Part shown: positions 28,367 through 53,224 of the stretch, piece by piece
Layout of the letters: every line of letters begins with the position of its first letter
How positions within the stretch are numbered: position 1 is the first letter of the stretch
Source of the DNA: Sclerodactyla briareus
Lineage: Eukaryota; Echinodermata; Holothuroidea; Dendrochirotida; Sclerodactylidae
Length of the DNA: 64,000 bases
Assembly (NCBI GenBank): GCA_026419785.1
Contig: JAODTK010002777.1
Location: forward strand, 496,001 to 560,000
Direction of reading: 5' to 3'
Notes under the pieces: model-generated
What the model was told of the DNA's origin: nothing
What the model saw: the letters and a program-made list of their open reading frames with translations, nothing else
Databases searched by the model: none
Program-made: the position numbers and the translations under genes

Positions 28367-28411
28367 TCAATCTGTAGACTTCATGCTGTCATCGTCGCTG
28401 AAGGCAATAAT
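28367..28411 (-). CDS. ATG7: ATG7 last coding exon with stop
   Basis: After the acceptor CTGTTTTTACAG the frame reads [14 protein letters not shown] and then TGA (28369-28367). It matches the acidic end of human ATG7 (IWDMSDDETI). Phase 0 agrees with the preceding exon. Confidence 0.9.
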   Translation of the reverse strand: MIAFSDDDSMKSTD

Positions 28412-31400
28412 CTGTAAAAACAGGATTCATCATTGATTTGTGTCAGTTATTTGAGGTCAGTACTCGTATAGTCGGTAATCCATTGGTTGCAACCTCTCAT
28501 CTGACCATCACCCCCACCTGTCATCTCTGAGTAGCTGCTGTTCCAATTTGTCAAACTGAACCTACATGGGCTAAAAATATGAGGAAACTTGTACAAAACT
28601 CATTTAGGCATTTCTCATCTGGATGCTTCAAGATCTATCAACATTATTTTCGAGGTGATTTTTGTGGTCATCCAGCTTAGTGAAAACGGCAGATTACGAG
28701 GGACGTGGAGGGCCTTTGATCAGAGAGTTCTATTTATTGGTGACTGAGCACACAAGTGGCTATTCCCTAGGCTGGTTATAGGGTAAGAAGTGCCATCCAT
28801 CGGTCAGGTTAACCCGTGCTTAGGACACTCTTAGACAGAATTGTAATCTCGATGCATTGGAATGCTCAAATGAATGCGATGGCACTATTGGGCTCGCATA
28901 TGACTGCATCTGAAATTTCAAACAATTCTGGAGTTTGTAAAAGGTCCTAAATGTAAAGAAAATGATAGAAGCGGCAAATATAAAATGGAAGCAGAATGAC
29001 AAGAAACCCACCAAAATGGATGTATAAGGTTGAACAATGATACTTCAGTGTGTGCGGTGTTTGCAAAAGGTGAACAACAAGACTCACAGGGCAAAACTAA
29101 TGGAAAGAATATGTAGCCAATGATAACCATGTGATAATCTTGCTTGTCCCAGGAAAGAGGAGGGTGGGGGTGTAATAACTGTTGTATGCCCTTTTCGCCT
29201 GATCCCTCTTTCCAGCAGCTTCCTACACAGTCCACCGAGAAAGCTTCACTGAAAACCTGTATGGAAACTTGCCATGCAAACCGACTCCTCCAAGAACCCC
29301 TCTAGTACCTCAGTTATTTAAAAGATGACTGTAGGTTGGCTTTGACAACAGTAATATTGTCCCTGGTCCAAACCATAGAGCTATTAACTGGAAAGGTCGC
29401 CAGCCAGTGTTTCATGGTTCAATTTAGAGATTGTTAGTGAACACACAACAGAAGTTGGTGCTGTACTATATAATGTACATTCACTGAGCAGTATATTTTG
29501 CGTCCCCATGGAAACGAGCATTGTGTGAACCATTTTTACGCCAAACTGTGACCACGATTTTGCAAGGCGAACAACCACATAGATTCATAGTATGGAAATG
29601 GCATATTTGTGCACACAGTTGGGATACCACTGCGAGAAGTGTTTCCCTGACTGGTAATTTGAAAACAGCATTAGGGAAGATAAAAGGATAGTGCAGAGAA
29701 CAATACAAGCCAATATTACAAATCGATTACGTCCGAATAAACATCACCAAGACTGAAATACAACTTAACGGAGTGAGGAAAAAGCTAATCAACAAGGAGC
29801 TTCAATTGGAGTCAAGTGAAACTTATTTTTCAATCACATAAGGAGATCATTGTATATTTCTATTTTCCGTTGGTGAACATGCAAGAAACTTGAACTACTG
29901 AGTTAATGAATCACAAATGGCTCTTGTTCGTATTATACGTTTTCTGGGTCCCGTGCTGGTAAGCTAGCAATTTGTGATGTATGCTAGGAATCGACTGATG
30001 TGCTAGGGAAAATGCCTCCGTCACAGACCAGCATATTGCATCAACGTACACCACAAGTTCCCTGCATTTTGTAGGTATCTATTCAATCACCCTTTTCTTG
30101 ATGCCCATTGTTCACTGGTTTCTGGGCAATGGATAGCTAGGAACTCAATTTGCCATCGTCCCATTAACATGCAGAGACATGGGACAGAGCCTTCGTAGAA
30201 AGCTCCATATACAATAGCAGTATTTCCTATTTTCCAGTCTTTAGTATGGCCCGACCAGGTCAAAGTGCAAATCTCTAATGGTAGGTTATGCCCAATGACA
30301 CATCAACGCAGTATATGAAGGGGCCAACATAGTTCATGTCCTCTCCTCTGATCACCGTTCATGACAGGTGGGAAATACCAGGAGCATATTCTTTGGGCCC
30401 ACAAGGGTTCTTGGTGGGCAGGTGATTTATCGTCCTCGTCCCATCAGTCTCATTCCTGCTACTAGAATAGTCGATCCGTGATCTCTCTAGACAGTTTGAG
30501 GTTTGTTAAGATATCTGCAGAGGGACCATGCAGATCCCCCTCCTTGCCCCCGCCCCAATCCACTTTTGACCGAAGAGCAATTGTTCCATGTACTGCCTCA
30601 ACCCATCTCTAAAGGATTTTATTGTACTGGATTGTTTTCTGACCCACATATTATAACTCCTAAAATAATTTACTTATGAACAAGCAGTACTTTCTAAAGG
30701 CAAATGGTCATGTAACAGATTTGCTTTAAACTAGCACAGGTGGAAAGAGGAAATACCAAACCCTCACACCCCATAGATCTCATCTATGGTTAGTTTGGTA
30801 CAAGATTTTCAAGAATGTTTAACATTGACTTGTATTAAAGGGAATTTTGCAGTTCCTCCTGTTGCAGATTGTGCCTCATCAGCTGAAATTCGGTCTGGGG
30901 TTTCAGCTGTCAATGAAATAAATGGAAACTAGTCATTATCACATGGCTATTATCCTTGAACAACCAGGTAGCCAGCCCCATATGGTTATCTAGAAATGAT
31001 ACTTGTGAGCACATTAGCCCTGCCCATCCACACAGACATGAACTCATCAAACTGGGCCTCTCACCTCAGAGTAATCTATATCTTGGTGCAGAGCAGTCAG
31101 CCCAGTATGGTCCTCTAGAATGAAGGTTGGTTGAAGACTTGCAGAAGGAACTTGAACCCTTGGCTCTTGTATGCAGATGTACAGACTCAGAGCAAGCAGT
31201 ACACTTGTTGAAGGCTAGCGACGCTGGCAGGATGGTATGGAAGCGAGACAGAACCCACGGATCTGCCAGGAGGATTCATCAGCAAATGAACGTGAGATAT
31301 TTGGGGGAGCTGAGGTAACTCCTTTACAAGCAGTTTAGGACTATGAAATATTAAATGCAAATGCAAATGAGACCTTCCACTCTACACAGTACAATACATA

Positions 31401-34400
31401 CTTTTCCATACTCTACTTACCTTGTTCATTGGCATCTGAAACATGACATTATAACTGGTTACTCAGGGGTCGTTAACATCTCGAGAATTGCCACCACCCA
31501 CACAGAGCAATCAAAGGAGAATCAATGGCATTCCGAAGTGTCTATGGTCAATGAGAAAATTAAAATTGGAATTGTTTTTTAGAACTTGGGTAATTGAAGC
31601 AGTGCTCAATGGTTTTGATTTGGTCGCCCATGAGCAACCATCTTGAGGAACCAATAGAGCAATCTTTGATGATCAGCCAGACATTCCTTGCATGGTTCAT
31701 CATGGTGCAGGACGGGTGTCATACCTGGTGTGGGACCAGTCCAAGTGGTGATATCAAGGAAGCATTGAGGTGGTCATCCTTAGCACTGGTATCCGCAGCT
31801 GCTGCACCCCTAAAGAGAGGAAAAGAGTATTTGAAGAAAAGTTTTTTTTAAGAGGATTCTTAAATATATTCAAGTCATCATCAACATATTCGTTTTAAAA
31901 CGTCTGTTATCCATGTTGACATTGGTTGGACGGACACATGTGACTCTTCCAAACACATCTGTCTCTAGCAAGACCACAACTAATACCCTTCTGTAAATTT
32001 TTCTGGACAACCCTCATTCCAAGTCTTCCTGGGTCTCCTATGACCTCTGAACAAGTGATCTATAAATATCTGCACCTACTACCCCATTATCCTCCTTCAT
32101 CCTCTCTATGCGACCAAAACATTTCAATCATTCCCTCTGCACATAATCACTAACCTTACAGAGCCTAAGCCTCTTCTGACTATGAACAACCCTATGATAC
32201 ACATTGCAGATTCCTCTCTAGTTTTCGGAGATCATCAGCCCTGACTGCCCAGGTATCACTACCGTACAGACGTACCCTCCTACCACAGCCTCAATCAACC
32301 TACCCTTAGTGGACACACATTTGAAATAGTTGTAAACAGTAATTGTCGAAAATCAATAGTTGCAAACTGAGATTGTTCAAAGGTGGGCTACAAAATTAGT
32401 TCACTATCTGCGAGATTTGCTGTAATGATGAAAGACTGCAGCATTGGTATCTCTCAATGGAGCTGGGGCAGATTTGGGGCGATTCGATTCAGGTTTTCCA
32501 AATTGTCCATGGCTTTTGTGACCTTTCTTTCAACTACTCATTTTAATTCTCTGATTTTATCACTAATAGGGGCCATTGTCTCAAGCTTTGTGGTGAACGT
32601 TGCAGATTAGACATTCAGCAGTATTTCTTTTTGCAAAGAGTGATTAATGAGTGGAATAGCCTCCCTGCAGATGTTGTTTGGTCTAAGAGTGTTAATGCAG
32701 ATGCCTTCAATAACGTCTTTGACTTGATTTCAAGGAATTGTGGGAGAATTCTTTTCCTGGTTGTTGTTTCAGGTCATTCATGAGGACTTTTCCTACTAAA
32801 CTAAACCCTCAAATCACCAGGAGTTTTCCCTCTGAATTTGTCTGAAAGGCATCTCGGTGAAAACACTTAAAACTCATCTGTTTCCTTTTGTTCGTCACGC
32901 CAGGGTCAGGACACCCATGTCACCCAAGCATGTAGTTCACTTCTCCTCAGGCTCAAACTGGCTGAAAGACACTGTCATAAGCCGGTGTACCCGGTAAAGA
33001 AATTTCTACCTTTTCCTCCCAAGGTGGTTCATTCAGTGCCTCACACTTGTGTGGTATTTGTCTTTTGTGTTAAGTTTGCAGTTGAGTTCTGTTGTATTGT
33101 TGGCCCTTGGAGTGCCCTGAGAGATGGGGATCTGTTGAGGAACTGCCTCAACAGTCACTCAACTGGGGCCATGACAGTGGCCTCATTGTATACAGAATGT
33201 GACCTTCCTCATTCCCCGCTAATACCCATGAGGATCCTCACAAAAATTTTAATTTTTGTGTCAAGGTTATAAAACACATCAACACATGTAAATTGTATTG
33301 TCAGACGAGCGCTTTTGATGATCGTTGCCTTTATTGCGAGTTGTATTTAGCGCTATATAAATGCTTTATTTATTTATTTATCATTATTACATGTTTTAAA
33401 GTGCCTGGTTCTGACATGGCCCAAGGTCTCTCCTTTTCTTTAGTCCCCTCCCTACACAGACAGAAAATACCATGGCCACAATTCACAATCCTCAGCTGAC
33501 AGGAGCACCAAGTAGACAGAGAGAAAATATTATTGATACACACGAACATTTTGTGGACAGACGATAACAATGCAGTAAACAGCACAGGTTCTCAAGGAAC
33601 AACCTGTGAGCCAATTGCAAAGTGCTATTCAGTGGCCAGCAAGGATTCAAATGATGGTGGCCTATGCCCATGAATGTGGCAGGCCATTTTCATGAATTTT
33701 GGCTACTAGAGTTACAAACTCCACAGAGGCGGCCCTCGGCCAGAAAACCTTGGGATCCCTTGTCATACAGTGTCATAAAAAAGTTGTTAATCCACATTGT
33801 TATTACACGGATTGGATTAGTTCACATTCCAAATGTGAGTAGCTTTGAAAAATCTTGGGTTACAGAATAATATTTCCATAGACCATACTCAAAAATACAT
33901 ACAGAGGGCGTTTACGAGCAACTTCATTCAAAAGTTAAACACACTAAATTTGCACTCTGTGAACACATGAGATGACAAGTTTAAAAAAAAAAAAACATTT
34001 TTTTCTTTTTTTTTGTTTTTTTTCATGAAACTGAGTTCTGTGTAATCAAGCAACAAAGTGTACTGCTGCACAAAAGGCAATGTAAAATTGGTACAGAGAA
34101 CAAAAATATATTGACAACGGCTCCTTTACAGAATATCATTCCTGCATAAAACTGACAAATGTTGTCGACATTATAAACATCTTGCTCTCTGGAGGTTTCA
34201 ACTTAAAGCGCTTTCACACCAGGCGCGACGCGACGCGACGCGACGCGATAAAAAGGTGGCAGGACCTTTCACACTGGCGGGCGATGTTTTTATCGCTCAG
34301 CGATGTTTTTGTGGCGCGCGCGGGAGATATTTTGTCATGTGATCGTAGAACATTTATAGCAGTCTTTGAATCATCTATATAATCACAATACCCACTTTTC

Positions 34401-37400
34401 AGTTTTTGGGAGACTGGATTCCAATAGAAGAACTATTCAAGTATTGTTAATCACAGTTTTTCTTTCATTCACAGAAGGTTGGAAGGAAAAATAGGTGTTC
34501 ATCAGTTCATGATGGATGAACACCTATCTAGTGGTGGCGATGAAAAAAAATAAGAGAGGGGTGAAGGATGTGTCACCCGCTACCTCCCCCCCTACCTCAA
34601 TGTTTTTCAAGTGTTCCAAAAAGCGAGGTGAATTTTGAAACAAGGCTGAACTCTTCTTGCTTAAAACACTCGGGAAGTGCCGTTTTCCGGTCATCTGGGG
34701 GGTTGAAAAATCACAAGTTTACTTGTACGCTCCGTGCCAACCGATGGTGGCGCTCCCCTTAGATAGTCGACGAACTTCCCCCTGGGTAAAAGCTGGCTAC
34801 AGAACTGGCATGAGCGCAGTAATGCTGCTTCCATTTTTCTGCCGAAGCTGATGGGCAAGGATGGAGAAAGGACATGCACCCAGGCCCCCTGTAAATACGC
34901 CGCTGCATCTATCCCTATCTGCTCAACCTTTCACTTTAATTGTACCTTTTTCTTCTTCAGCTTCCCACTCTCGCTCCTTCTATACTATAGTGACAATCAC
35001 CATAATTTTCTTTATCAGCCTCCATTCCCAACCGGGTAATAACCATCCGGTTCCTTCTCCTATACATCCATGATATCCACTTTTCTAGAACGATATCATG
35101 GAACATTTCCCTAACCGATCATGGATATACAGAGCGCGCTGATTGGTCACCGAAAAATATCGCTCGCAACACTCAGCGACAAGCGACAAAAAGTTGAAAT
35201 TATTTCAACTCGAAAATATCGCGTCGCGTTGCGCGCCGGTGTGAAAGGTCCTAACTAATCTTATTGTTTTCAACTTTTTATCGCGTCGTATCGCGTCGCG
35301 TCGCGTCGCGCGCCAGTGTGAAAGGGCCTTTACCGTGCGATTCCAGCACAGAAACATTTGATAATGTAGAAAGTACCTTACAGTAAGGCGATGGCGCTGT
35401 TTCACTTGATGCTGACACTTCTACCCATAATGCTGTGGGCGGCAGCGTCTGCGATGAGGTCTATGAACTTCTTACCCATTAGGATGTTGCAGTAGAGTGA
35501 CTAGGAGCTCTACAGCCAGGGCTCCAGCTACCATGGACAGACCTGGTCGGGACACGGTGCACTGCTGGTCCAAAGTACGGTCTTTGGTAGACTGAGAGAG
35601 AGAGAAAATATGAGAAATAAATGGAGGGTGGGGGGTTGGGGGGGGGGGTGGAAAACAGAGCAAAGAGACTGAGCAACCACAAAAATAGTAATTCAGAAAC
35701 TAGTCGGTTTTCATTTTCAGTTGAAGGTAATTAACACTGGTTGTGCAGTGGGGGTCAAAATATAGCCCAATTACCTACACGGCCTGACTGGATGATTCAC
35801 CAACACCATGCAATTCAGGCGTCCTTTTTTTCACTGAAAGAACTAGGGTTATATGGCTGAAATTTCCAACCATCTGTTGGACCCAAAAGAGTATGGCCAG
35901 CTTAAAGATGTAGGATAAAGGACTTTCCCAACTCAAGAGATTTTGCATAATGGCATTAAGTTGCTCCATTGTATTGGATGACTCAAAACAGAAATGAACC
36001 CCAGTCCTTCATATGTAGACATATGCACCTTAGTCAATATCATAACATTAAAATGCAGGCGTGAACTGGTTCACAAGGTTCTCGTGGCAACTTGCACAGA
36101 CTTCTAGTGGCATGAAAAAAAGTAGAGATTTATCAATCAGTAGTTGTAAATGGGAAGACCACATTTCCTTGACAAGCCTTATCCCTTATCAACTGTCTGA
36201 TATGGACTACCATTACCAGACACTATGGATATCAGTACTTACATTGCCAGGGGCCACCACATCATTACAGAAGTAGCACCCCAACCTGTCTCCTGGTATT
36301 GCTGACAGGTTGACTGGTTCAGGGGGTGGGCTACTGCTGGAAGCACTCTTCAAACCATGTCTGAGGACCAGATAGGTGTCAAACCCCAGGGCTGCATTGA
36401 TTACCAGCTGAAGAAAGAAGAAAACATTTCTTCCAGTATTATAAGACGAGTGCTTCAAGAACTGATCAGCCATGTCATTTTTCAGTGGTTGTTTTATTTT
36501 GCCTTTAGTATGTTTCGACCAACCTGATCTTAGAGGCCGAAGGAGAGCAAAATGCCAGTTAACAGATAATAACGGCAAAATCTGAAAGCATATATAGAGG
36601 TGACTGGAGTTTACCAGCTCTAAGTGCGCTACCTATAAATTACACTAATCAGTGACCAATCTCAACTTCAGTAGGAACCATGTCTATTGAGTTGTTCAGA
36701 AATGTGACTGGAATTGCCTAAATTATGCAATTTAGACATAATACTGACATCACTTAATACATTTTATGGAAAATTCAACTAACTCAAAAGTGTTGCAAAA
36801 ATTAGGGAAATTAATAGATACATTGAATAACCCCAAACACTCAAATACAATAAAATTTGGGGACTAAAGGTGGGCCATACCCATCAGATTTCATGAAAAT
36901 GGAATGAAGTTCGCATAAATTATGCAAATTTGAAACATAGAATGACTTCCAAAGACCTCAACTCTATGTTGAAAATTTGGGGGATAAAGGTGAACCATAC
37001 CCACCATGTTCCATGGAAATCCAGCAAAGGCTTCGCATAAATTATGCGAATCAGACACAATGAATGACCTTAAGTGACAGCAATCATTGTTTAGAGACAG
37101 AAAGTAGCTATATTCACTAAGTTTTGTGACAAATAATTATACAATGCTTTCCTCATGTGATTGAAAAATTTAAAGTGTCACTTGACAGCCCCTCCAATTG
37201 AAGCTCCGTGTTAATTGGCTTTTTGATTCCTTGACAAATTAAAATATTTTACGCTGAAAATCTAATGAGCTCATCTTATGTCTGTACCTACGTGCCACCC
37301 CAAATCACCATAGCACCTACGGTCCATCAGTCATTTTGTTAACAAGCCTAAACAATAAATTTAATGGAGAAAAGGTTAATTGCCCCACTAATCAGTAAGT

Positions 37401-38157
37401 TTTTGTACTCCCCACCTAATCAGATCATGTTCATGTGTTCACTACATAAAAAATTTCATAAGAGTTGGTCTCACCGTTTTGGAGAAATCCTGCTAACAAG
37501 AAAGTGTGACACACGCTCACTACAACACACACACACAAGCCACAAGGTATCGCTAAGTATCTTTCTGAACTTTCTGAAGAGAGAGGTTATAACTGCGACT
37601 GGTAAATGATTCTCTCCAACAACAATGTATGCCATCTATTAACAGACTCAATTATAAAATAAAGATGATAATCACTAACTACATAGACCAACTGTGATGC
37701 AGCCACAAGTGAAAACCCCGAAGGAATGTCATGCTAAATTGCAGTATCATGAAACATAAATTTATTTATTGAGTGGCATCCTGGGCATATTATGAATAAT
37801 GAGCTTCATGGCATCACTCTGGAATCTTACCTTCCTCTTGCTGGAGGCTATGACCGTAGGAAGCCACCGGCTCTCTCTGGTGTCCATCAATAGGAAGACG
37901 ACATCGTGTGATTCTATGAGCTCCTCCAGTTTACTGACAGCCTCTTTCACTTGCTTTACTGCAGCGTCTGAATGAGGAGCATGAAAAACTAATATCATAT
38001 ACCAAATAGGTTCTTAACCATTTCAAGAGTGATTTGAAGACCTACTTTTCCCTTTTAGAGCTGTTTTCACTGTATTTGTACTGTGTTTTATTAGCCTCTT
38101 TGAATTGTAACTCTTGTAGCTGGTTCATCGTCTTATTCTCGTGGTAAACTTGCATTA

Positions 38158-38189
<32 letters not shown>

Positions 38190-40921
38190 ACCGTCAAAAA
38201 ACAGGGTTCTTCAAGATTCCTGGGAAGAGCACTATAAAAAGTTGATTATTTATATTAATTATTATTATTAATATCAAGTGAAAAGCTTTGCTATGGCCAT
38301 AAGAGTGCATGCTCACCACTAGATATACACTAGTATAGATTATATTCTCCCCATAGCTCTATCAATATGTCCTATTATCAACTGTCACCACTCTTCGAGA
38401 ACACAACCATTTCATGCCGTCTTTTCAGATGTTGTTGTTGTTGATAAGTATGGGGGGTGGGGAATCTGTAAAGGTTTGGGCTGGTAGGATGTGTAGTTTT
38501 CGTCAGGGGAATTTCGGAGATTGGTCTGCACGCTGTACTTGCAATGTCAAGTGGCTAGTGTACCCCTCTGCCCTCCGACAGACAGACAGACATACAGACA
38601 CATTAGCATCTCATTAACTGTAACCTTGAACAGGATTATACCAACTGCATCTGGCTTGCAGAATGAGCTCTAATTAATATGCACTTTTGTAATTGTAATC
38701 CCAGCTATGAAAAGGATTAGAGGGTGTAGGGGGTCTCTGCAATAGGTGTGCAGAAAACGTGATACCACTATGTTAGGAAGTTGCGCCAACTTAGCGGCAA
38801 TTTCATGAATGCTATGCATTACACATAGCTGGGAACCAGCTGAGACATTCGCTATATTGTTGCGCCATCATATGAGGGCTCAACCGAGAATTCCAGGAAC
38901 TTTACACAAGTGATTTGGGGTAATTCCCAGAAAATTCTATATTAATATGACACATCTATCCACGGGTCACCCAAGGCTGGGAATGAAACTACATTACGAT
39001 GTTTGTTTGAAGCATTGGACATTTTTGTCATCACTGGGATGACCAGATTGGCCACCAGACTGACACCCAGTCAGAACCATAATTTTGGTGAATAATACCG
39101 ATGTAACATTGACAACTTGAATAGGAAATCATTCCTGGCATCAGGCAATCTACATAATATCCCTACATGGGTTGACATAAGCCTGGCAAATTTAGCACTC
39201 TAGATGTAATCTGCCTTCATTTTCTACTCACCACTCTTGCCAACGGAATGACCTGCATCGGATGGAGAACTGGTGACCTGCCGATTTCTGGAATCAAAAC
39301 CGCAACCAGAAGATCAAATATGTGTGGAATATTTTAATCAATCACAGTAACAATAATGAAGGTGTTTGTTTTTGTTTTGCAAAACAAAACAAGAGTGCCA
39401 TGGCACAGTAGCTCACCTGTACTTGTGATATCAGTAGGCCTACTGGCATTTTTCTATCAGGAATAGATGTGATGATTGAAATGTGTAGATGCTACATGTA
39501 CATGTTATCACAATGAGCAAGAGGATGTAGTGGCTATTCGCAATGTGACTATCCAGGTATTACTATAACCCACTATCGACACTATGCAACAAAACTGCAG
39601 AAAAAAATACATTCTGCATGATTTATGTAATGGACCCTAGGGCCCACACTGGCCAAAAATTAAAAAACACCCCAAATAGCCCATTACACAAGGACCACTG
39701 CTCCCAGTTTACAGAAAAACAAGCTTGTTAAGAGGATATGCAATTCCACCACCATTGTGTTATTTCCATACAATGGGCCTAGGGCCCAATGGCACCTTGT
39801 CCAAAATCCTGAACCCCCGAGGTACAGCATAGAGCATCATTATGACCGAACATGAGGACTGTGCACCAAAATTTGTAGGAGGAGAAGCATTTTGCGTGAT
39901 TTCACATGATGGGCCCTAGGGCCCACACTGGGCCTTGAGCCAAAAATTCCCGAACATCCCCAATGGCCCACTACCCAAAGACCATTACATGTAACTTCAA
40001 AGAAATCAATTGAAGCTTGTAAGAGGAGATGCATTTCAACCACCATTGTGTAATTTCATAAATGGCCATAGGGCCCAAATGGCACCTTGGACCAAAAATT
40101 CCTGAACACCCCGAAGGTACGGCTATTAGACCATCATTATGACCGAACATCAGCACTGTGCATCAAAATTTGTATGAGGAGAAGCATTTTGCGTGATTTC
40201 ACATGATGGGCCCTAGAGCCCAAGTGGGACGTGGACCAAAATTTCCTGAACACCCTGAAGGTACGGCTATTAGATCTTCATTATGACTGAACATAAGCAC
40301 TGTGCATCAAAATTTGTAGAGGAGAAGCATTTTGCGTGATTTCACATGATGGCCCTAGGGCCCAAGTGGGACGTGGACCAAAATTTCCTGAACACCCCGA
40401 AGGTACGGCTATTAGACCATCATTATGACCGAACATCAGCACTGTGCATCAAAATTTGTAGGAGGAGAAGCATTTTGCGTGATTTCACATGATGGCCCTA
40501 GGGCCCAAGTGGGACGTGGACCAAAATTTCCTGAACACCCTGAAGGTACGGCTATTAGACCATCATTATGACCGAACATCAGCACTGTGCATCAAAATTT
40601 GTAGGAGGAGAAGCAATTTTGCGTGATTTCACATGATGGCCCTAGGGCCCAAGTGGAACCTTGGACCAAAATTCATGAACACCCCAGATGCCCCTTCACT
40701 TGGCCATCATTGTGACCAAGTTACACCATGATCCATCAAACACTGTAGGAGGAGTAGCAATTTGAATCAATTGTGGATGGATGGATGGTTGGATGGATGG
40801 ATGATGGATGGATGGATGGATGGATAGATAGATAGATAGATATATAGATAGATAGATAGATAGATATATAGATAGATAGATATATAGATAGATAGATAGA
40901 TATATAGATAGATAGATAGAT

Positions 40922-40984
<63 letters not shown>

Positions 40985-43900
40985 GATAGACATGCAGGAT
41001 CACAATAGCTCACCCAGCCCATTACAATTCTGTGCCTAATTTGGAGTAGAGAAAAAATGACCACATGGAAGTTTCACAGGAGTCACACTGCTGCTGCTTG
41101 GATTGTTTCTTGCCACAATAGTCTCTCAAAGTCTCATTCCTTCTGTTAAGTTTTGATGTGATATCTTCACTGCTGTGCTGTTTATGTGTGTTTCTTTTTA
41201 ATACAATTTCAAATATGTTAAGTCTATTCCCTATAGTCAAGGGGTGTGCTCATATATTCACATTCCCACTGATGTCTACAATGAATAGGACTAGCATCAC
41301 GAATGGTATCACTGAGGCTTTTGCAGCAAACAATCCCAGTTTGAATTCCAGCAGCCAAAGGACATTCCTCTAGGTGGTCAGGTTCTAGAGTTCACTGATC
41401 ATCCTTTCGGAAAGGGACGTAAAATGGCGGTCCCGGGTGAGTGTATGTCAGACCTGGATGCCACACAGGAGCTGCATATTCAAATGCTAGTGAACATATG
41501 ACATAGACTGCCAGCAAGTCAATGTGGGGCATAATCACAAGGAATCCAGAAACCGAGAACCTCAAAGTGGGGTCAAGTAATCATGTTCACAAGCCAAAAT
41601 CGGCCAAAATATAAATTTTTCATGATTTACCAACTCTCCACCAAGTAAACCCAATCTAAATATGAAAAACAACAGGGTTCTCAAACTTCCCATAAGAAAG
41701 CTGTATACCAGCTTTAGCTTGACTGGATTAAACATTCAAGACTTATCATGTTCACAAGGTTTTCAGACTATGACCTCAGATGACCTTTGACCTGACTCCA
41801 CATCACCAGGGATCATGAACTAATTATGGGGAACCCACAGTATTAGCTTGATCCATCCAGGTGGGATCAAGTTATTGCAATCACAGATCAGAATCGTCCA
41901 AACTTTCAATGTTTCGTAATTCCCCCATCTTTACCAAAATCACCCCCTGTTTACACCAAAAACAATAGGGTTTTTGTACCCCCTGTATGTAAGCTGTATA
42001 CTAAACTCCAGCTTGACAGACCAAGCATTCCGGACTAATCATGTTCACAGAGTTCTTAGACTGACCTTGCTGGCCCCAGATGACCTTCCACCTGACCCAA
42101 AACAATAGGAATCATGGACTCCTTACAAAAAAATCTTAATATTGCCCAAAATACAGCTATTCCTTCAATCCTAGTATTTCCTGTCTCAAGGTGAAACACC
42201 AATCTACACCAAAAACATTAGGCTTCCTGCACTCCTCGTGAAGTTACAGCCCATAAATTTTACAGGCTGTAATTTCAATTATATATTGAAATTATAGCTT
42301 GATCAGACCAAGCATTTTGGACTCATCGAGTTCACAAGGTTCTAAGACTTTGACCCAAGATGACCTTCGACCTCACTCCAAAACCATAGGGATCATGAAC
42401 TCAATATGGGGAGCCTACATATCAATTAATAGCTTGATCCATCCAGTGGGGTTAGTTCTCATGTTCACAAGCCAGACATCACAGACATACATACACAAAC
42501 ACGCAACTGGCATGACTGCATAGATTACTAGACTGAGAGTGCTGAGGGTTTGAGTTAGAACTTGCAAACCGCAATGCTTCTGTGTTGTACTCGTTGACAC
42601 CCCTCTCAGGTGTCAGAAGGAGGTGTGTTGGTGTGCAGTGCAGTGCTGCTAGCAACAATGGGCAACACCTCAAGGTTAGGGTTATCTCTAATGTTGAGAG
42701 AAAGATCAATCCAGGCAGAAAAAGTCCTGGAATAGGAACTATATGGAGAACCTTGAAAACTCGATGGGCATTTTTGGTCTGGGTATAAGCTTTTCTGATG
42801 AACTGGTCTATCATTTTGAGTGATTTTCAAGATACTGCAGAGTAAGGAGGGCCATGCTGTTGGAGGATTGGGACTTTCCCTAATCACCAGCCTACACATC
42901 ATTATACAAGCCCTATCTACAGTTACCTATGTTTTTTCCACCATTCAAGGCATTACAGTTCCACACATAAGACTTACCACGCCAGGGAATATCTTTGACA
43001 GCTTCTCCGCGGCAGTTTCAGCCTTTGGTCGGCCGCCATTTCTGCGAGTCTTCAAATTCAAACAACGACTGCCGGACAGGATTTGAGTATGATATGCTGG
43101 AATTATCAACAAAAGTGACAGTCCTGACACCCCAACCCTGGGAAGGAAACACAGGAAACTGTCAAACAAGTCAGAAATTCCACATATTGGAATCATTACC
43201 CTGCTGAACTGAAAGCATTGTTATTTGTAACAGCTATAGCATTCACCTTATTAGTCATCAGTTCAGCAGGATGGAGTTCCTACATCAGTAGCATTCCTAA
43301 CGAAACCTGCATATAGGTTTTACTATCTGCCTGGCTGTATGGATACCGTTTTGACTGTTTTACGCTCTGAATTCCTACTCTCAGGTCTGAGTATTGGTTC
43401 CCTAAGCCTCTTCGTATAGTGCTTAATGAGGTGATAGGTTGTTGTTTCTACTCTGATGCTTATCTGGAGCAATATGCACAACATCCACCTTCAGCATGAT
43501 CTGGCCAGGAAATGAACCTGGTCTCAAACAACTCGACCAGACTGTCTCTCTGACATGTTCTCAAGTGAGCCATGAAACGGTCATCTGGCACAAAATGAAA
43601 TACCCTCAAACGCTGGTGAGAATGACTGGTATACTCACTATAAGGCACCTTGCAACATTACAGCCGAGGGTCCCAGCCCCCAGGAGCAGACCCTTTGTTC
43701 AGATACTTTATCTAGATCGAGCTCTGGTAACAGCCTCCATCTCATGAGCTTCAGGTCAGGTCAACTGATGATTTCTGGGGCTAACCTAGGATGAAGGATG
43801 GAACAACAAAGTCATGTTTTAAAGCACTGGATACTGGACATGGATGAATCCTTTCAAGGGAGTTTGTGAAATCACATTTGTGTATGGAGCCCTACAAAAA

Positions 43901-46900
43901 TGACACAACACCTCTGTGCAAATTGTTCGTTAACAGGCCCTCTTTGCAAATGCTTGGGAAAGGATAGGGAAATACTTTTCAAATTTAAAATGTTATTGGC
44001 ACAATATAGATTCCTAACCTGTTTGGGTCCATGCTTTCACTCAGGTCCACCATCCTTGGTCCAAGCTTGTTCTTCTGATTCCTCTCCCAACCGACACACT
44101 TTGGACATCTACGGCATTCAAAATAAGTATGATGAGAAAAGAGTACTTCATTGACTGATTCAACAGTCAATTAAAAAGGGGGAGAAAACATTACAGGCAG
44201 ATAAATTCCTAGACAGAAGAGATAAACAGGCATCACTTGATGTATACATCTTAGAAGAGAGAATAATATCTGCGAATCACTACTATAAATGTTCGAAGAT
44301 AATATGGTTTTGGGGCTGTGTCTGCTGCCGTCTCCGCTGGGAAACGTTAGGTGTTAGTAAATAACTCTAATACTTTGTCTGATTGATCTGAAACTTGGTA
44401 CACATGTATGCACGAGTGGAATGTGAAATGGGTTTAGAGAGTGGGGATTGTTGCATGTCGGCTTCCCTCTATTTTGCAGGTTTTAGGCAAAAAAACATCG
44501 TTTTGGTTTGATTTACACAAAACTATAATGTGGATTACAGTTGGCCCTGAACAACAGGTGGGTCATTTCTGAATGAGCTTTTCCACCGGGTTAATAATCC
44601 CCTAGTGGCCACTTGGGCATCCACCACTAATGAGGGGGCAGGTGAAAAAATACTGCAACTGTTCTCTCAATAACACATACATAGATGAGTAACGCAGGAT
44701 TTTTCTGAATATCCATAGTTTTGGCCTACCTTTAACATCTTTCAGGACGGACATGAAACGTGTAGTACTATACTGTGATCACAGCTCCGACTGCCCTCCA
44801 ATAGTTTCTATCTCTGAAGCCTATCACCGACCACCGGCTCCTCACAGGGCCTGCAAGGAAACCCACACAAACATGTGAAAGAAACAGAGTTCTGGGAGCA
44901 AAAGTTTAAACCTGTCGTCCAGCAAAAAATATTACAATTGCTAAAACATTGTGCATGAAAACCATGCCAATGATTACTTGGTTAGAAGTTCGTAGATTTG
45001 AAATGATGTATGAATTTTCAAAGATAGGTAATTTATACAACTAAGTGGCAATTCGGCAAATGTGCAACATGTGATGATGTCATTTCCTACCAATTACAGA
45101 GTTAAGTTGAGAAAATATTCTTCAATTTTATTTTATGGTTTGGTTTTAGAAATGACGACATCAAACGACTGCCATTTGCCAAAATCGGGCAGATTTATTT
45201 TAATTTTAGAAAAACCATATCTCCTAAACGGACCCTGCATGAAGTTGGAAACAAGGTGAATCCCAGTTTTCAGATATCTATAAACATTAAAAAATTTAAG
45301 ACAGTAATATTTTAGCTGGAATATTCTTTTAAGTTCCAGCCTGAATAACGTCCCCATATTGCGGGACGCTAACATGCGGCAACAAGAAGTGACACTCTCA
45401 CCGGTACGACCCAACAATTTTCTTCAAAAATTGGATATTAATATTCCTTGAAGAATCAATCGGTTTCTTGCAAGTCTCTATGGTGGTTGATATGTTGTGC
45501 CATTTTTACCATTAAGAAAAGGACATTGCAAGAACTTGAATGCAATTTTTCTAAACATAATAGACACCAGATACACAAGTAAAATATTAAGGTTGTCTAG
45601 CACATTTGCCATAAAGTTTTGAAAATTTGACACAATAGGAGACTTGACATGCAAAATTTCGCAGAGATGCCCCCAATTCCCAAGTTTGAATTACATATAA
45701 ACTTGTACGCAATGAACGGTACCAAAATGGGTTTGGACAATAAATCAGTTTGCTTCTGTTTTCATAATATGTAATGATCCGTAATTTTCTAAGATCTCAG
45801 TTCATGCGGAGAGCATGTTTACATGCATTTTACAAATATCTCCTCTGGCCAATCCCGTAACCCTCAGGATCACTTTGGTTTGCTGGTGACAGCTGGGTTC
45901 ATATGTAGATAGAAACCTCAATTATATCCTCCTATTATCCTTTAGAGTTCATTCTTAAATATTTTAAGTAGTTAATTCTCTATTAGAACCCCAATTGTTT
46001 GATCTCACACTGACTTTATTAGTAGTGCCTGCGCGCGTGGCTTTGTAGTGCGGCGCAAAATGATCTTATTGGCTGTAATTTTGCGGCAATTGTATTCATA
46101 AGTTGTTATGACACGAGTTTGCGATTCATTGGACAGTCAGATGCAGATGGAGAATTACAACATCTATGTATTGAGGATCAATTTGAATAGCAGGTATCGG
46201 AAATAGGCAGTGGCAGTCACCTTTTACGACAGACAGACCGTTTTATACTAGAGTCAAATATTATTCTTAGGACAGGATAATTGTAAGTTGTTTTAAAGTC
46301 CTTTAGTCTTAAGAAAGTACAGGAAAGACTCTTGTAAATTGTCGTTGGAGAGCGATGAGGCGTTTATTGTTAAATATAAGTTGAAGGAAAGGAGAGTGGT
46401 TTTTCGATTTGGTCTCCGTTTTATGTTACTTACCTGGCTAATCAATATTACGTAATCTTGGGCCAAGGACCTCGCTGGCGCTACCGAAAATCGACACGGA
46501 GCTATGCAAGTCTCAATAAATCGCAAGTGAAATAACAGCGTTACAAAGCATTTATACACTAATCTGGAAAACCCTGTTAATTCACACTAATTCAATATCC
46601 TTATCGGAACAAATAACAACCCTGCAGCGTTCAGTTAAGCACATCCATAAATCTGGCCAGCTACAGCCAATCACATTCCAGCAGTTTCATGAAGGTGGAT
46701 GAATGTTGAACCTACCATTTGTATGCTCTGAGAGTGAGGTAGTTCTCAGAGGCCAACCAGATGTACCCCAGGGTACATGGGTCACCAAACGCAGAGTGAA
46801 TATGCAATATAAAAATATCAACATTTAAGGAAGTTGTAAATACCCCAAGATTCAGGAGGTTTTTTTTTTTTTTTTAATTTAGTATCAATATCCCCAGGGT

Positions 46901-48715
46901 GAATACCCTATCTTGGTAAATTGCCACATGAAGTTACTTGAAGACTTACTGCCGAGCCCAGGTTTGAATCCTGGTTACGAACCATTGTAAGCAACAGGAG
47001 CTACTGGACAGACTATGAAGTTTACTTAAGCAATCACCTAAGTGCCATAGGCATGGAGAGGGGGGTGGGAGGGGGATTGCAGTCATACCCCAAGTGACCC
47101 AAGTGCTCAATACATTTTTAACACAAAACCTGAGTTTGTCAGTCCAAGTAGAAGTTTGCAGCGATTATTTAGCAGATATTGCAGCAGCATGGGACTAGGG
47201 CCCCATAAATTGTACTTATTTTGCCAATAGGAGGTGGGCCATTCATAAGGGCCACTTCTCTGGGTTCCGCCGTCAAAACCCCCCCCCCCATGACAAATCT
47301 CTGCTGACGCTACGATCAACTCACTCACCAACTGTGGCCCAGGGTTCAAAACCTAGTCAGTTATTTTAGAAAACAGAAGTTACGGTCATTGACCATACTC
47401 TCGCTTTCTCTATTACCTGGGCATTCTTGGGCACTTTATCAGCTTTGTCCACGGTCCTGCAGGTTGATCAAGTTTCGTCTTGGATTACGAGGAAGAATGC
47501 TAATGGTGTTGTCTTCTTAGCTAGTGATTCATACTCCCTTCTGTAATGACTTGGACCTGAGAAATGAAACGAGTTCTGATTGTTTTTGTTAGGCAATTCG
47601 TATGTTTTGAACCAACCCCATCTTACGGTTGAAAGAGATCAACTGACGTTAGCAGCTAATAACATCAGAATCCGAAATTGTCTAGTGGTGGATATTTGGC
47701 TAGCCTTTTGCTTCACCTTGAGCCCCTATTCATGACCAAGTTACAATTCCTTGGAAAGGATAGTTGACCATGAACTGTGTCTCATGAAAATGTGAAATGA
47801 ATCAAAAATAGGCTAACTTATGCCAATTCAACACTTCACCCTTTTCTAATTCCACTAGCTCAGGACCAACAGTGGACCGCACTGAATATAATTTAATGGA
47901 ACTCCACCGAACTTTATTTATTTGTATAAATTATCCGAGTAAACACACCCTGGGTGGCCCTCCATTGGCAGGATTTTTTTTTTGTGACATATGGCAACTA
48001 TATCACTAGAGTTCGTAAAATCTTCAAACCTCATAATTTTACCCATAATCTCACTAACAAGCTTGAACAAAAATCATGGAGTAGATTAAGTGACTTCCGT
48101 GCTCAAATCTAATCATATACTGTCAACACCCAGATACTACATCCAACCCGAAACTTCCGGGTCATAGAAGGTCGGTCTTACCGGTTCGGAGAAATCCTGC
48201 CAACAAGAAATGTGACCCCACATAATACACACACGCTGAAAGGATCATTGAGTCTCTTTCTTAACTTTGTTCAAGTAGACCAAAATGATATTACCTGCCC
48301 AGTGGTGAATACAGACACTGTGATTGAAAGGATACAACTTCGCCAAATAGACCTCAAATAGTCAGGTAAAACCAAGCTTTATAACGGAACCCATTTGGCT
48401 CCGATAACTAATTATTTTACTGGATAATTAGTCAGAGAGAGGACAAAGTCCAGTTGTCCATGCTTCCGTTGGAATTATGCAGCCATGCAATGATGTTGTG
48501 GAAGATCAAGGCGGAATGAATAAGATCATAGGAGCAAGAAAACTGAGACATCCATTCATGTATGCATGAATGGTTCTGGACAATGCCGCGCACCTGACTA
48601 TTGGTGAAGACCTCCTTCAAGCTTCTCACTGGTTTGTGTAGTTGAGCCTGATTGGTTCAGGGCTACCAGGGCTGGAAACGCAAAACCAGTAGTGTAGTAG
48701 GTACTCTTCAAAATC
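28367..48715 (-). CDS. ATG7: ATG7, E1-like ubiquitin-like modifier-activating enzyme (gene span, 5' end missing)
   Basis: ATG7 activates ATG12 and the ATG8/LC3 family in the cytoplasm: it adenylates their C-terminal glycine, holds them as a thioester on a cysteine, and passes them to ATG10 and ATG3. Fourteen exons on the minus strand align in order with human ATG7 (703 residues) from about residue 130 to the end. Key parts seen are the ATP-binding loop [14 protein letters not shown], the adenylation-domain run [19 protein letters not shown], the catalytic-cysteine segment [10 protein letters not shown] (human Cys572), and two CxxC pairs ([15 protein letters not shown]) of the kind that bind structural zinc in E1 enzymes. 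Thirteen exons have GT-AG borders with matching phases. The ~130 N-terminal residues were not located. Single-base indels occur in about eight exons and are best read as assembly noise. Introns up to ~4 kb are filled with repeats. Confidence 0.95.
31065..31262 (-). CDS. ATG7: ATG7 exon: IRGF...[15 protein letters not shown]...[10 protein letters not shown]
   Basis: The exon runs from acceptor CTGGCAG to donor GAG/GTGAGA. It carries [33 protein letters not shown] and [15 protein letters not shown], matching human IRGFLSRF to LTLLHQETQAAE. The CTAC pair is the second zinc-type CxxC. The pieces fall in three frames; about three lost bases explain this, and restoring them gives 67 codons and phase 0 at both ends. 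Confidence 0.93.
31725..31809 (-). CDS. ATG7: ATG7 exon: [11 protein letters not shown]...SPLGLVPHQ
   Basis: Acceptor CTCTTTAG and donor CAG/GTATGA bound 85 bases in one clean frame. The exon completes the Gly codon split by the previous intron and ends SPLGLVPHQ, matching human TSLGLVPHQ. No indel is needed. Confidence 0.95.
31930..32290 (-). mobile_element. LINE fragment (RT C-terminal region) in ATG7 intron
   Basis: On the minus strand the frame reads [18 protein letters not shown] (about 32270-32205), then, nearer 32040, [10 protein letters not shown]. The pair W..R.DD..KLERN and GRPRKTW is typical of the post-RT region of several non-LTR retrotransposon clades. Frames are broken. The clade (RTE-like or L1/Tx1-like) cannot be settled from this piece. 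Confidence 0.65.
32370..32770 (+). mobile_element. LINE fragment (RT thumb and C-terminus) in ATG7 intron
   Basis: The plus strand reads KLVHYLRDL (about 32390), MELGQIWGD (about 32458) and, in one long clean frame, [20 protein letters not shown] followed by [19 protein letters not shown] (about 32566-32690). This is the classic RGH...WNSLP end of CR1/Jockey-group reverse transcriptases. Only the last part of the element is present. Confidence 0.8.
32800..33390 (+). mobile_element. Second LINE 3' end with GCGCTATATAAATG tail
   Basis: [14 protein letters not shown] (about 32854-32895) matches the FK..LKTHLF end of many LINE ORFs. The 3' end at about 33348-33390 reads TTTAGCGCTATATAAATGC followed by TTTATTTATTTATT, a tail common in invertebrate LINEs and derived SINEs. 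The two tandem LINE ends in this intron are separate insertions. Confidence 0.6.
33400..34200. other. ATG7 intron, no feature recognised
   Basis: AT-rich intron sequence with poly-A and poly-T runs at about 33980-34025. No exon or transposon family is seen. Confidence 0.4.
34206..35329. mobile_element. Foldback/MITE-like element with doubled, GACGC-expanded terminal repeats (PIF/Harbinger-like)
   Basis: The left end AGCGCTTTCACACCAGGCGC and the right end on the minus strand AGGCCCTTTCACACTGGCGC form inverted repeats, each followed by (GACGC)n and GATAAAAAG. Inside, both ends carry a second copy: GGACCTTTCACACTGGCGGG near 34261 and, inverted, GGACCTTTCACACCGGCGCG near 35252. TTA flanks both sides (34203-34205 and 35330-35332), matching the TWA target duplication of PIF/Harbinger elements. 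No transposase is visible. The core holds C-rich runs and the ~80 bp repeat shared with 26.64-26.72 kb. Confidence 0.7.
35337..35455. repeat. Short repeat shared with 50.63-50.74 kb
   Basis: TTCCAGCACAGAAACATTTG and, later, ACCCATAATGCTGTG recur at 50628-50735 in the same order. It lies between the foldback element and the catalytic exon of ATG7. The family is unknown. Confidence 0.45.
35476..35591 (-). CDS. ATG7: ATG7 exon with catalytic cysteine
   Basis: Acceptor CTCTCTCAG and donor GG/GTAAGA bound 116 bases. The exon reads [17 protein letters not shown] and then [19 protein letters not shown]. The cysteine of QQCTVSRPG aligns with the thioester-forming Cys572 of human ATG7. The frame is intact. 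Confidence 0.97.
36243..36407 (-). CDS. ATG7: ATG7 exon: [19 protein letters not shown]...[14 protein letters not shown]
   Basis: The exon has 165 bases, phase 0 at both ends, acceptor CTTTCTTCAG and donor AAT/GTAAGT. It encodes the end of the adenylation domain and the first CxxC pair (GCYFCNDV), followed by the start of the crossover region. A family B element lies about 80 bp upstream of its acceptor. Confidence 0.97.
36485..37590 (+). mobile_element. Family B tandem-module element (copy B2) in ATG7 intron
   Basis: The 5' block (about 36485-36590, TATGTTTCGACCAACC, AACAGATAATAACGG) is shared with copy B3 at 47.58 kb. Then come CTAATCAGTGACCAATCTCA and modules with CATACCCACCATGTTCCATG and ATAAATTATGCAAATT. 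The 3' end has CAAGAAAGTGTGACACAC, a CA microsatellite, and GTATCGCTAAGTATCTTTCT before a degraded hairpin (GAACTTTCTG). Confidence 0.65.
37831..37967 (-). CDS. ATG7: ATG7 exon: [19 protein letters not shown]
   Basis: Acceptor CTCATTCAG and donor AAG/GTAAGA bound 137 bases in one frame. It opens by completing the Asp codon begun in the previous exon and continues [17 protein letters not shown], then the E1-family adenylation core [12 protein letters not shown], ending SSKRK as in human ATG7. Confidence 0.97.
38159..38189. repeat. 31-base poly-C run
   Basis: An uninterrupted run of 31 C lies in an ATG7 intron between exons at 37.97 and 39.23 kb. The true length is uncertain, since homopolymers are unreliable in this assembly. 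Confidence 0.9.
39232..39287 (-). CDS. ATG7: ATG7 short exon around SIPMPGH
   Basis: A 56-base exon lies between acceptor GATTCCAG and donor GTGAGT. It reads KSAGHQFSI, then GHSVGKS. The human segment is NARGFNMSIPMPGH. The middle is out of frame because two bases appear to be missing within CC runs. With them the exon has 58 bases and its phase fits both neighbours. A family A element starts ~90 bp away. Confidence 0.85.
39370..41015 (+). mobile_element. Family A tandem-module element, most complete copy, in ATG7 intron
   Basis: The 5' end has two palindromes, TTTGTTTTGCAAAACAAA (39371-39388) and GTGCCATGGCAC (39395-39406), then AGTAGCTCACCTG. The body has at least seven modules of 142-144 bp; GAAGGTACGGCTATTAG recurs at 40113, 40257, 40399 and 40542. 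Each module holds GGCCCTAGGGCCC, itself palindromic, and CATCAAAATTTGTAGGAGG. A GGAT/GATA microsatellite (40771-40985) follows, then GACATGCAGGATCACAATAG and the damaged terminal hairpin. No coding sequence. The layout fits non-autonomous Helentron-type (HINE, pearl, Tsp) elements. Confidence 0.8.
40771..40985. repeat. GGAT/GATA tetranucleotide microsatellite
   Basis: GGATGGATGG grades into GATAGATAGATA with TATAGATA variants over about 215 bp. The minus frames over it stay open, giving Tyr-Leu-Ser-Ile repeats that are not a gene. It occupies the microsatellite slot of the family A element. Confidence 0.95.
41015..41560. other. ATG7 intron, no feature recognised
   Basis: Between the family A and family C elements. 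No exon, domain or repeat family is seen. Confidence 0.35.
41560..42485 (+). mobile_element. Family C array, ~275 bp dimeric modules, in ATG7 intron
   Basis: Modules of about 275 bp alternate two related half-units. One holds ATGACCTTTGACCTGACTCC and GATCATGAACT; the other holds ACCAAAAACAATAGGG and AAGCTGTATAC. AAGCTGTATAC recurs at about 41697 and 41991. The same dimer is found at 62440-63340. The array ends at CAAGCCAGACATCACAGACA and a short CATACATACACA microsatellite. No clear terminal hairpin was found. Confidence 0.65.
42978..43137 (-). CDS. ATG7: ATG7 exon: [11 protein letters not shown]...NPVRQ...KLSKIFPGV
   Basis: Acceptor TTCCCAG and donor GTG/GTAAGT bound 160 bases. It carries [29 protein letters not shown] and [20 protein letters not shown], matching human [22 protein letters not shown] onward. 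The two halves differ by one frame at an AAA run; without the extra A the exon has 159 bases and phase 0 at both ends. Confidence 0.95.
43639..43774 (-). CDS. ATG7: ATG7 exon with ATP-binding glycine loop
   Basis: The exon carries [18 protein letters not shown] and [19 protein letters not shown] in shifted frames, matching human SSVDLNLKLM, WRLVPTLDLDKV and [17 protein letters not shown]. The GAGTLG glycine loop binds ATP. The donor is ATA/GTGAGT and the likely acceptor is GCCCCAG. At least two single-base losses are needed; the exact 5' end is less sure. Confidence 0.92.
44019..44108 (-). CDS. ATG7: ATG7 exon: [16 protein letters not shown]...SESMDPN
   Basis: The exon has 90 bases in one clean frame, reading [19 protein letters not shown] and then [10 protein letters not shown]. 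Human ATG7 has CPKAVGWEKNQKGGMGPRM and VNLSECMDPKR. The donor is AG/GTTAGG and the acceptor GCCGTAG. Confidence 0.96.
44295..44490 (+). mobile_element. Family D 5' fragment in ATG7 intron
   Basis: AATATGGTTTTGGGGCTGTG is followed by TCTGCTGCCGTCTCCGCTGG, GTTAGGTGTTAGTAAATAAC and CTGAAACTTGGTACACATG. This matches the family D start at 53.43 kb without the first arm of its hairpin. Confidence 0.55.
44730..44850 (-). CDS. ATG7: ATG7 exon: GFRDR...CDHSIVLHV
   Basis: Between acceptor CCTTGCAG and donor AAG/GTAGGC lie [21 protein letters not shown] and a short tail ending next to CPKCVGWE of the following exon. The human segment is VEVVCFRDR, AHSIIFEVKL. The pieces lie in three frames, so two or more indels are present, and the call rests partly on order and position. 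Confidence 0.75.
44860..46715. other. ATG7 intron, no feature recognised
   Basis: Mostly single-copy AT-rich DNA. Minus frames of 88-94 codons near 45133 and 46293 show no domain and do not align with ATG7. Confidence 0.4.
46716..46790 (-). CDS. ATG7: ATG7 exon: [19 protein letters not shown]
   Basis: One open frame reads [18 protein letters not shown] and then TLRAYKW, aligning with human YDPCNLAQYPGWPLRNFL and VLAAHRW. The donor is TG/GTAGGT, whose phase fits the next exon. No AG acceptor is visible at the expected place (the sequence reads CTCTGCG before TTTGG), perhaps because of a lost base. Confidence 0.85.
46795..47415. other. ATG7 intron, simple repeats only
   Basis: Holds a poly-T run (about 46860-46876) and a C-rich run (about 47279-47290). 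No exon was found here other than the flanking ones. Confidence 0.35.
47417..47556 (-). CDS. ATG7: ATG7 exon: [21 protein letters not shown]
   Basis: Acceptor ATTTCTCAG and donor CAG/GTAATA bound 140 bases. The best frame reads [19 protein letters not shown] and then DET, matching human [20 protein letters not shown] and YDEN. The first residues (VQVITE) and the last ones ([12 protein letters not shown]) are in other frames, so two indels are likely. A family B element lies only ~25 bp upstream of the acceptor. Confidence 0.88.
47578..48290 (+). mobile_element. Family B element (copy B3) in ATG7 intron
   Basis: It starts with the block shared with B2 (TTCGTATGTTTTGAACCAAC, AGCAGCTAATAACATCAGAA). 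The body is short, with CATAATTTTACCCATAATCT and CCGGTTCGGAGAAATCC. It ends CAAGAAATGTGACCC, a few ACAC units, and TCTTTCTTAACTTTGTTCAAG, which can form the imperfect family B hairpin. It lies ~25 bp from an ATG7 acceptor. Confidence 0.6.
48594..48715 (-). CDS. ATG7: ATG7 exon: [18 protein letters not shown]
   Basis: From acceptor TCTGATTTTAG the frame reads [10 protein letters not shown]. After a TTTT run, one base out of frame, it continues [10 protein letters not shown], and then in another frame VFTNSQ up to donor CAG/GTGCGC. The human counterpart is DLKKYHFYYWFCYPAL and RFSLKQ. This is the most 5' exon found; it corresponds to about human residue 130. Confidence 0.88.
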
Positions 48716-49290
48716 CTAAAATCAGAATAGAAGGGAATACCATGGACAATTCTAATTTCTGGACATGTTCATATCGGTAATACTGGCAACTTGAACGCCC
48801 GACTTTGCACTGTAACCACTGTCCATTGATTATAGCAGTGCTGAATCTAATAATTGAGTCTCATTACAAATGCTGATAATTTTATTTAAGGTTGCATACG
48901 ACCGTGTTTGGTACCTTCAGTCCCTTGAGATGATGTCCTAATAACCACTCATCTTGGACAACGTTCATTCTACAAAACTTAAATTTTAAACATCCGGGGA
49001 AACGAGTTTACTCGACCTGATTGACATCAATCAATGGGGGGAATTTGATACCCAACTCCCTGCCAATTCTAGCCAACGTAGCCCCGACAATTGATGCAGC
49101 TAGGTAGAACGAATTCTATAGTGAAGATGATCACTTACTTCAAGGCTCAGTCACACTAACGGTTGAGTAAATATAGCGTGCACACACAAAACCCAAATAG
49201 CACAAGTCACACCAATGATCAACAACAATTTAAAATGTGAATCAATCCATGAGCCATAATCCATTCGTCAACTTGAAAGGTGGAACCAGG
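48716..49290. other. No feature recognised; ATG7 N-terminal exons expected upstream of here
   Basis: I looked for the missing ATG7 N-terminal segments (such as FWHELTQKKLN or LLLTFA) on the minus strand here and further right and found none I could support. Confidence 0.3.
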
Positions 49291-49590
49291 GTTCCTGCGT
49301 TCTGGGACAACAATCTCATAACTTCCCATGACCATATGACCAAATGAAGGGATTTCCATGAAATCCTCTCTATGACATTTATCATAGAACTGAGATCCAA
49401 AAAGGGGCCAAAGCAAAAACAGCAAAAGGGTGAGAGAGTAATAACATCCCACTTCATGCGAAGATTTCCAATGACTTCCCATGACTCAACAACTTTTCAC
49501 TGAATTGAAAAAAATTATCCAGGCCCTGGGATTTCATTGAGGAAGTCAGGAACTTTTCCCAGGTTTTCGATGACGTAGGACCCGTGTAAA
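49290..49590. repeat. Dispersed TTCCATGACTT-type repeat
   Basis: CCATGACTCAACAACTTTTC, ACTGAATTG and TTATCCAGGCCCTGGGATTT match 22735-22830 in order and orientation. It is a short interspersed element of unknown class. Confidence 0.55.
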
Positions 49591-51190
49591 CCTGCTCTGA
49601 CCAAAAAGGGAGACCCAGCTGCTGTTACGTTAGTGTTCAAATATTATGGTATCATCCGATTATACCGATTTCCAATTATTAATATCATAATATGACCGAT
49701 TACGTACTGATCCGATATCTGTGTCTACATTCCTAGCATTTTGACTTCAATACCTCACTATTTATTTCTAGATATCAGCACACCCCAGGGGGGGGGATTG
49801 ACTTTTTTTTTGCCCTCTTCGATTGTGGAATTTATAGCTACAGTGGACCGGACCCAATCCTATCGTTTGTTAGTGTGTGACCGGGGATCATGCTCCGTGG
49901 TAGGGGCAAGAATCCTGGCGGAAGGCAAAAAGAGAGGGAGGGTGGAAACCGATTTAGTTCAGCTAGAAACGCAGGAGAAAGTGAGAGCAGAGGAACAAAG
50001 TTGGTACAGACGCAGGGAGGGAAAGGGAAATTACCCGAGGAGAGCGCTCATTTCCAGGTCCGGAACTAATCTCACCAGCAAAGGCACACACGTGTGGCCA
50101 CCTAGAAGGCCGGAAGAAAGAGAACAAAGTGAGTAGGAAGTCAAGAAGAGCTGTAACAACGCAGAGCGGAATATTCAAGCTCCAACATAGTCGGAAGATA
50201 ACTGGTGTACTACATACTGCTCCACTGGTGAGCATCAGAAGGTCAAGAGGACATTTGTAAAGTGGGCTGGTGTAGCACACCGGAATGCTCCCTCACGTCG
50301 AAAGCGGGACGTAGGACAAGAGCAAGATTGCCCTAGCACCAAGGGACTTTCATAGTGAATAGGCAGTCAGTTTTCTATACACAAATACCTGCAGGAACGA
50401 GCATAAGGGCAGGTAGAAAAGAGCTTGTCCTAAAAAAGCCTTCAACCCCTTAAATGCTACATAAGTGTCCGCGAGGCAAAGTACAATGTGAAAAAAAAAA
50501 AAATTCTTGGTACAGGTTGCAAAAAAGTGTTTTGACAGCTTGCTTAGTCACAGGGAATATCAATCTCACCTCAATTGGATTATGTTGTAGAGATCATATT
50601 CTGCTCTCTGGGAACTCTCAAGTGACCTGCGTTCCAGCACAGAAATATTTGATAAAATTGGAGAGAAGGAGCCACACAGGAAATATGGGGCTGCGACTTC
50701 ATCAGGACTATTCCCACCCATAATGCAGTGCACAACAGGTGTTCGTGATAAGGTCGATTTGAGTGAAGTCGTCTTAAGAGAATTATAGACAGAGTATATG
50801 TATGAGATATTCTAGGTGAGATTAGTTTGTTGTAGCTCCACGTAAACGGCACTGTCTATTATTGCCAGCTGTTGATGCTATTGCCTCTTCAAGTACTCGA
50901 ATTGTGAGCTTTCACAGTTGTAGGAATTTCACCTACATGGTTCATTGGATTACTATTCTCTTTCACTCTATTTAGACCATGAACAATACATTCCACAACT
51001 CCTACCTGACTACCACTCATGCCTTACTTTCAATACATACCCCAGTCGAGGGTGTTTTTAGAGTTTGACACATCCCACACAGAGGATAAAAGTTTGGCAG
51101 GCAAACACTGTTTCCTGATGGGGTTCTATGGCCAAGGCGATGTCATGTAAGGCTAGTCTCAGACTGCAGCAAATTTAACTATGTTCGGGC
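49590..51190. other. No gene recognised
   Basis: An Arg/Glu-rich frame of 131 codons (49741-50136) is the longest here, but it has no recognisable domain. The segment 50628-50735 repeats that at 35337-35455. The remainder shows no family. Confidence 0.3.

Positions 51191-53220: not shown

Positions 53221-53224
<4 letters not shown>

Follow-up and report, generated by a model that had tools for sequence, protein, structure and literature searches.

What gene lies on the minus strand of this Sclerodactyla briareus contig, and what do the breaks in its reading frame mean? The window, meaning the whole 64,000-nucleotide stretch of DNA that was analysed, had been given an initial annotation that placed an ATG7 gene at 28367 to 48715. 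The ATG7 family comprises E1-like enzymes that activate ATG8/LC3-type proteins and ATG12. Our analysis indicates that the locus is very probably an ATG7 gene of about 17 exons, which occupies the minus strand between about 56499 and 28367, and that its frame breaks are most likely insertion and deletion errors in the assembly.

Identity of the minus-strand gene

The query was the human ATG7 protein, and the human residue numbers used throughout follow its sequence. A tblastn search, the check proposed in the initial annotation, returned 16 matches above 24 bits in the window, 15 of which are collinear on the minus strand between 56475 and 31062. The other, a weak match (35439-35338; E 0.085), breaks this order and was taken as chance. 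The same query was placed with a custom-written spliced alignment that tolerates frame shifts and introns of any phase, in one version with a cheap and in another with a stricter frame-shift penalty. With the cheap penalty the alignment scored 1484, as against 406-475 in 13 controls. Nine of these controls altered the DNA (plus strand, 421; reversed DNA, 406; positions 1-28000 on both strands, 461 and 451; five shuffled DNAs, 427-456) and four altered the query (reversed, 453; three shuffled, 444-475). Donor scores are positive in 15 of the 16 introns of the cheap-penalty alignment and acceptor scores likewise in 15 of 16, values to be read with the fact that the alignment itself favours such sites.

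How specific is this likeness to ATG7? The exons were joined into a query of 575 letters with X placed at frame breaks, and this query scored 583.9 bits with TIGR01381, the equivalog model of ATG7, above the cut-off of 571.35, which bears out the earlier assignment to a minus-strand ATG7. It also passed the Pfam families ThiF (PF00899; 129.7 bits, cut-off 28.1) and ATG7_N (PF16420; 101.4 bits, cut-off 27), the best ATG7_N stretch covering profile positions 220-309 of 309. The best matches in the PDB are ATG7 chains, which we take to be those of yeast ATG7, at E 1.5e-103, and the PDB match was also found with a query joined from parts of the exons starting at 35591, 36407 and 37967. One hypothesis is that a different E1-like gene has been taken for ATG7, since the adenylation fold common to these enzymes produces weak matches to other E1 enzymes, and ThiF/MoeB models matched with scores under their cut-offs. 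However, among the best 60 of 69 rows the E1 enzymes other than ATG7 match over at most 94 residues with E 3.8e-7 or worse, the ATG7_N domain is present, and TIGR01381 was passed. For these reasons the locus is assigned to ATG7 and not to another E1, the alternative that the initial annotation had asked to have checked and that we regard as extremely improbable.

The functional motifs named in the initial annotation are all present in the aligned exons. The stretch DRTLDQxCTVxRPG, whose Cys is the catalytic Cys of ATG7, lies at 35591-35476 and aligns to the same stretch of a solved ATG7. The 11-residue ATP loop is present in exon 43785-43639, and the pairs CYFC and CTAC, which correspond to the zinc site of ATG7, both align to CxxC of the solved protein. 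Because the catalytic Cys, ATP loop and CxxC pairs are kept, we propose from the sequence that the encoded protein would activate ATG8/LC3-type proteins and ATG12 as an E1-like enzyme. Human and yeast ATG7 share with the window copy the domain order and all of these motifs. Aligned from human residue 297 onward, the copy has 261 of 383 residues identical to human ATG7 and 178 of 337 identical to yeast ATG7. The greater likeness to human suggests that the gene is that of an animal. Unlike the human protein, the window copy is without part of the loop before CYFC and has a tail past the human C-terminal end, and it differs from both human and yeast ATG7 by the frame breaks in the given sequence. 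This is an ordinary ATG7 gene, and as biology its annotation is routine.

Exon structure

Spliced alignment puts 14 exons within 48715-28382, one of which (46437-46434) is a one-residue filler. The final exon list is a composite of the stricter alignment, the cheap-penalty alignment and local alignments, in which this filler is replaced by 46783-46716. All exons lie on the minus strand and are written here from high to low coordinate. The composite has 14 exons between 48715 and the TGA stop at 28367. The 14 exons that had been traced by eye were given without a coordinate list, and the agreement with them is one of number, range and order only. Twelve of these are well placed, two of them (starting at 31809 and 28411) being short and resting mainly on the chain, and the remaining two (47556-47417 and 39287-39232) do no better on their own than shuffled DNA. 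The earlier extent of the gene, 28367 to 48715, proved too short at the 5' end: about 8 kb of the gene lie upstream of it, with exons 56499-56348, 53343-53283 and probably 51565-51459.

Exon 1 (56499-56348) runs from the start codon to YYYN and covers human residues 1-54, as placed by tblastn, spliced alignment and the sequence itself; it carries two frame shifts and a weak donor (score -9.2). The same three lines of evidence place exon 2 (53343-53283), which reads SAGVPYRLCLEYHAFD, covers human residues 54-74 and starts with an in-frame TGA. The probable exon 3 (51565-51459) was found by local alignment within human residues 72-112, with a broken frame and uncertain ends. Its local score was 49 in one comparison, where 6 shuffles reached at most 35, and 43 in another, where 20 shuffles reached at most 33, whereas the whole-gene alignments picked 51125-51006 or 51125-51028 instead.

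The next exon (48715-48594) has a clear start at human residue 138, identified by tblastn, the spliced alignments and the sequence, and its local score of 57 exceeds the maximum of 38 in 20 shuffles. Its 3' end is uncertain, being 48594 in the stricter alignment and 48630 with the cheap penalty. The following exon, 47556-47417, begins at about human residue 176 and contains three frame shifts; it is weakly supported, coming from the cheap-penalty alignment and the sequence, with a local score of 30 that 5 of 20 shuffles reached, and the stricter alignment picked 47129-47089. When human residues 158-200 were searched for locally, no match exceeded those in shuffled DNA. Exon 46783-46716 extends to human residue 256 and holds DPCTLG and GWPLR in alternating frames, its 5' end being uncertain. 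It lies inside exon 46907-46716 of the stricter alignment and was skipped by the cheap-penalty alignment, and its local score is 67, the best of 6 shuffles being 37. Both spliced alignments contain exon 44850-44730, which extends to human residue 296, includes VIGFRDRN and three frame shifts, and scores 53 locally, where none of 6 shuffles exceeded 38. Human residues of about 75-83, 110-137 and 210-235 have no confident placement in the window.

Downstream, tblastn and spliced alignment agree on exon 44108-44019 (human 297-327), which is clean with the cheap penalty and matches the end of Pfam ATG7_N. Together with the sequence they also place exon 43785-43639 (human 327-375), where the ATP loop lies and three frame shifts occur, and exon 43137-42978 (human 376-428), which has one frame shift. 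Exon 39287-39232 (human 429-447, GHSVGKS) is the second weakly supported exon, with two frame shifts. It derives from spliced alignment and the sequence, is reduced to 39252-39232 in the stricter alignment, and has a local score of 20 that all 20 of 20 shuffles reached; moreover, a local search with human residues 425-450 preferred 42786-42754 over it (33 vs 29). The initial annotation had joined this exon to the next through a D codon split between 39232 and 37967. This junction does occur in the best spliced alignment, but it depends on an exon that lacks local support.

Three clean exons placed by tblastn and spliced alignment follow: 37967-37831 (human 448-493), which carries the other part of the split D codon; 36407-36243 (human 494-561), with the first CxxC as CYFC; and 35591-35476 (human 562-600), with the catalytic Cys. 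A G codon is split between 35476 and 31809, as had been claimed, in the best spliced alignment. Exon 31809-31725 (human 600-625) is clean, and its tblastn match, weak on its own (E 0.43), is complemented by spliced alignment. Exon 31262-31065 (human 626-693) contains the second CxxC as CTAC and three frame shifts and was placed by tblastn, spliced alignment and the sequence. The spliced alignments and the sequence place the last exon (28411-28367), which is short and clean and whose TGA stop ends at 28367.

Frame breaks: assembly error or decay

In the given sequence, the window ATG7 does not form a single open reading frame after splicing, and the initial annotation did not mention that several of its exons contain frame shifts. 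The breaks concern whether this copy works and not its family membership. Nineteen frame shifts are needed with the cheap penalty and 13 with the stricter one. The 19 comprise 11 cases of one missing base, 4 of one extra base and 4 of two extra bases; two of them fall in exon 51125-51028, which has poor support, and five in the weak exons starting at 47556 and 39287, and the exon ending at 46716 has further shifts beyond the 19. Six exons (starting at 44108, 37967, 36407, 35591, 31809 and 28411) are without breaks under the cheap penalty. To the eye the breaks seemed to go with runs of identical bases, an impression that is given no weight here.

A fundamental question is whether these breaks belong to the organism or to the assembly. 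One hypothesis is that the locus is a decaying ATG7 pseudogene, either an intron-keeping duplicate or a lost gene, and the 19 or 13 frame shifts, the in-frame TGA and the three protein stretches without placement are what this hypothesis would explain. However, decay old enough to have left so many indels should also show in substitutions, given the usual proportion of indels to substitutions in neutral DNA. From human residue 297, identity to yeast is 178/337 for the window and 185/345 for human, and the positions where yeast matches one only number 18 for human and 16 for the window (p 0.86). The corresponding counts are 10 and 11 in five frame-clean exons taken alone, which needed no choice of frame by eye. 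Of the 185 positions at which human equals yeast, 180 are readable in the window and 162 of those 180 are unchanged. Simulated random change of 10% per base altered about 21% of codons. Over the part from human residue 297, substitutions in the window ATG7 show no decay relative to human. Nonsense codons number 0 of 292, which is a weak test, as random change of 10% per base also gives none in 6.5% of trials. The catalytic motifs are retained, and the residues flanking many breaks match human, though the frames were chosen to match.

Because the substitutions show no decay, indel errors in the assembly are favoured over a pseudogene as the most likely explanation, and the latter seems to us unlikely. 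We infer that bases were inserted or deleted in error and were most likely left so in the assembly. A paper on small genomes, in which a human example is also cited, describes how indel errors in long-read assemblies disrupt genes through frame shifts (PMC12007338). Some features count against assembly error: the breaks are unevenly spread with six exons clean, exon 2 has its TGA and exon 1 its weak donor. Uneven indel content within the window speaks for errors, yet the excess lies at 57-64 kb, outside the part with ATG7. Repeat pairs inside 57-64 kb have 144 gap openings to 282 mismatches (0.51; 7 pairs), as against ratios of 0.19 at 1.7-28 kb (15 pairs) and 0.21 at 28-57 kb, the ATG7 part (11 pairs). 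These come from 44 repeat pairs in total, 11 of which span two parts; where several pairs derive from the same array, they overlap and so do not count as independent.

A stronger claim would be that the frame breaks are real and that the sole ATG7 of this organism is lost or on its way to being lost, in which case conjugation of ATG8 and ATG12 would not take place or would proceed by another route. We consider this very improbable. No title on ATG7 loss or pseudogenes occurs among the literature matches listed. The locus has value as an example: gene finders that need open frames could miss ATG7 here or label it a pseudogene, and frameshift-tolerant spliced alignment recovers most of it despite the broken frame.

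Remainder of the window

Does the window hold other genes? When the three minus-strand frames of 44000-53400 were read through and scanned with Pfam and NCBIfam, ATG7 was matched only at exon 44108-44019, and the scans gave one weak, unrelated NCBIfam match below cut-off. Pfam scans of 1700-28002 and 56400-64000 in six frames each detected no other gene above family cut-off. Rfam at the gathering threshold and ARAGORN gave no match. On the plus strand at about 2545-2850 there is a weak integrase core match (PF24764; 24.9 bits, cut-off 26) that is perhaps a transposon remnant.

Simple and tandem repeats occur both inside and outside ATG7. An ATG7 intron contains a 143-base tandem array of 6.3 copies (39773-40685), three copies of which show mutual differences of 1-6 mismatches and 1-3 single-base gaps. 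Two other arrays, one of 142 and one of 127 bases, are located at 8566 and 14530, respectively. Unbroken runs of C occur in ATG7 introns at 53159-53220 (62 bases) and 38159-38189 (31 bases). At the start of the window, positions 3-1598 form a 1.6-kb, almost pure T/C tract (1154 T, 383 C, 42 G and 17 A of 1596) that corresponds to an imperfect TCTT array (matches 66%, indels 16%); numerous errors in the reading of a cleaner array could account for it.
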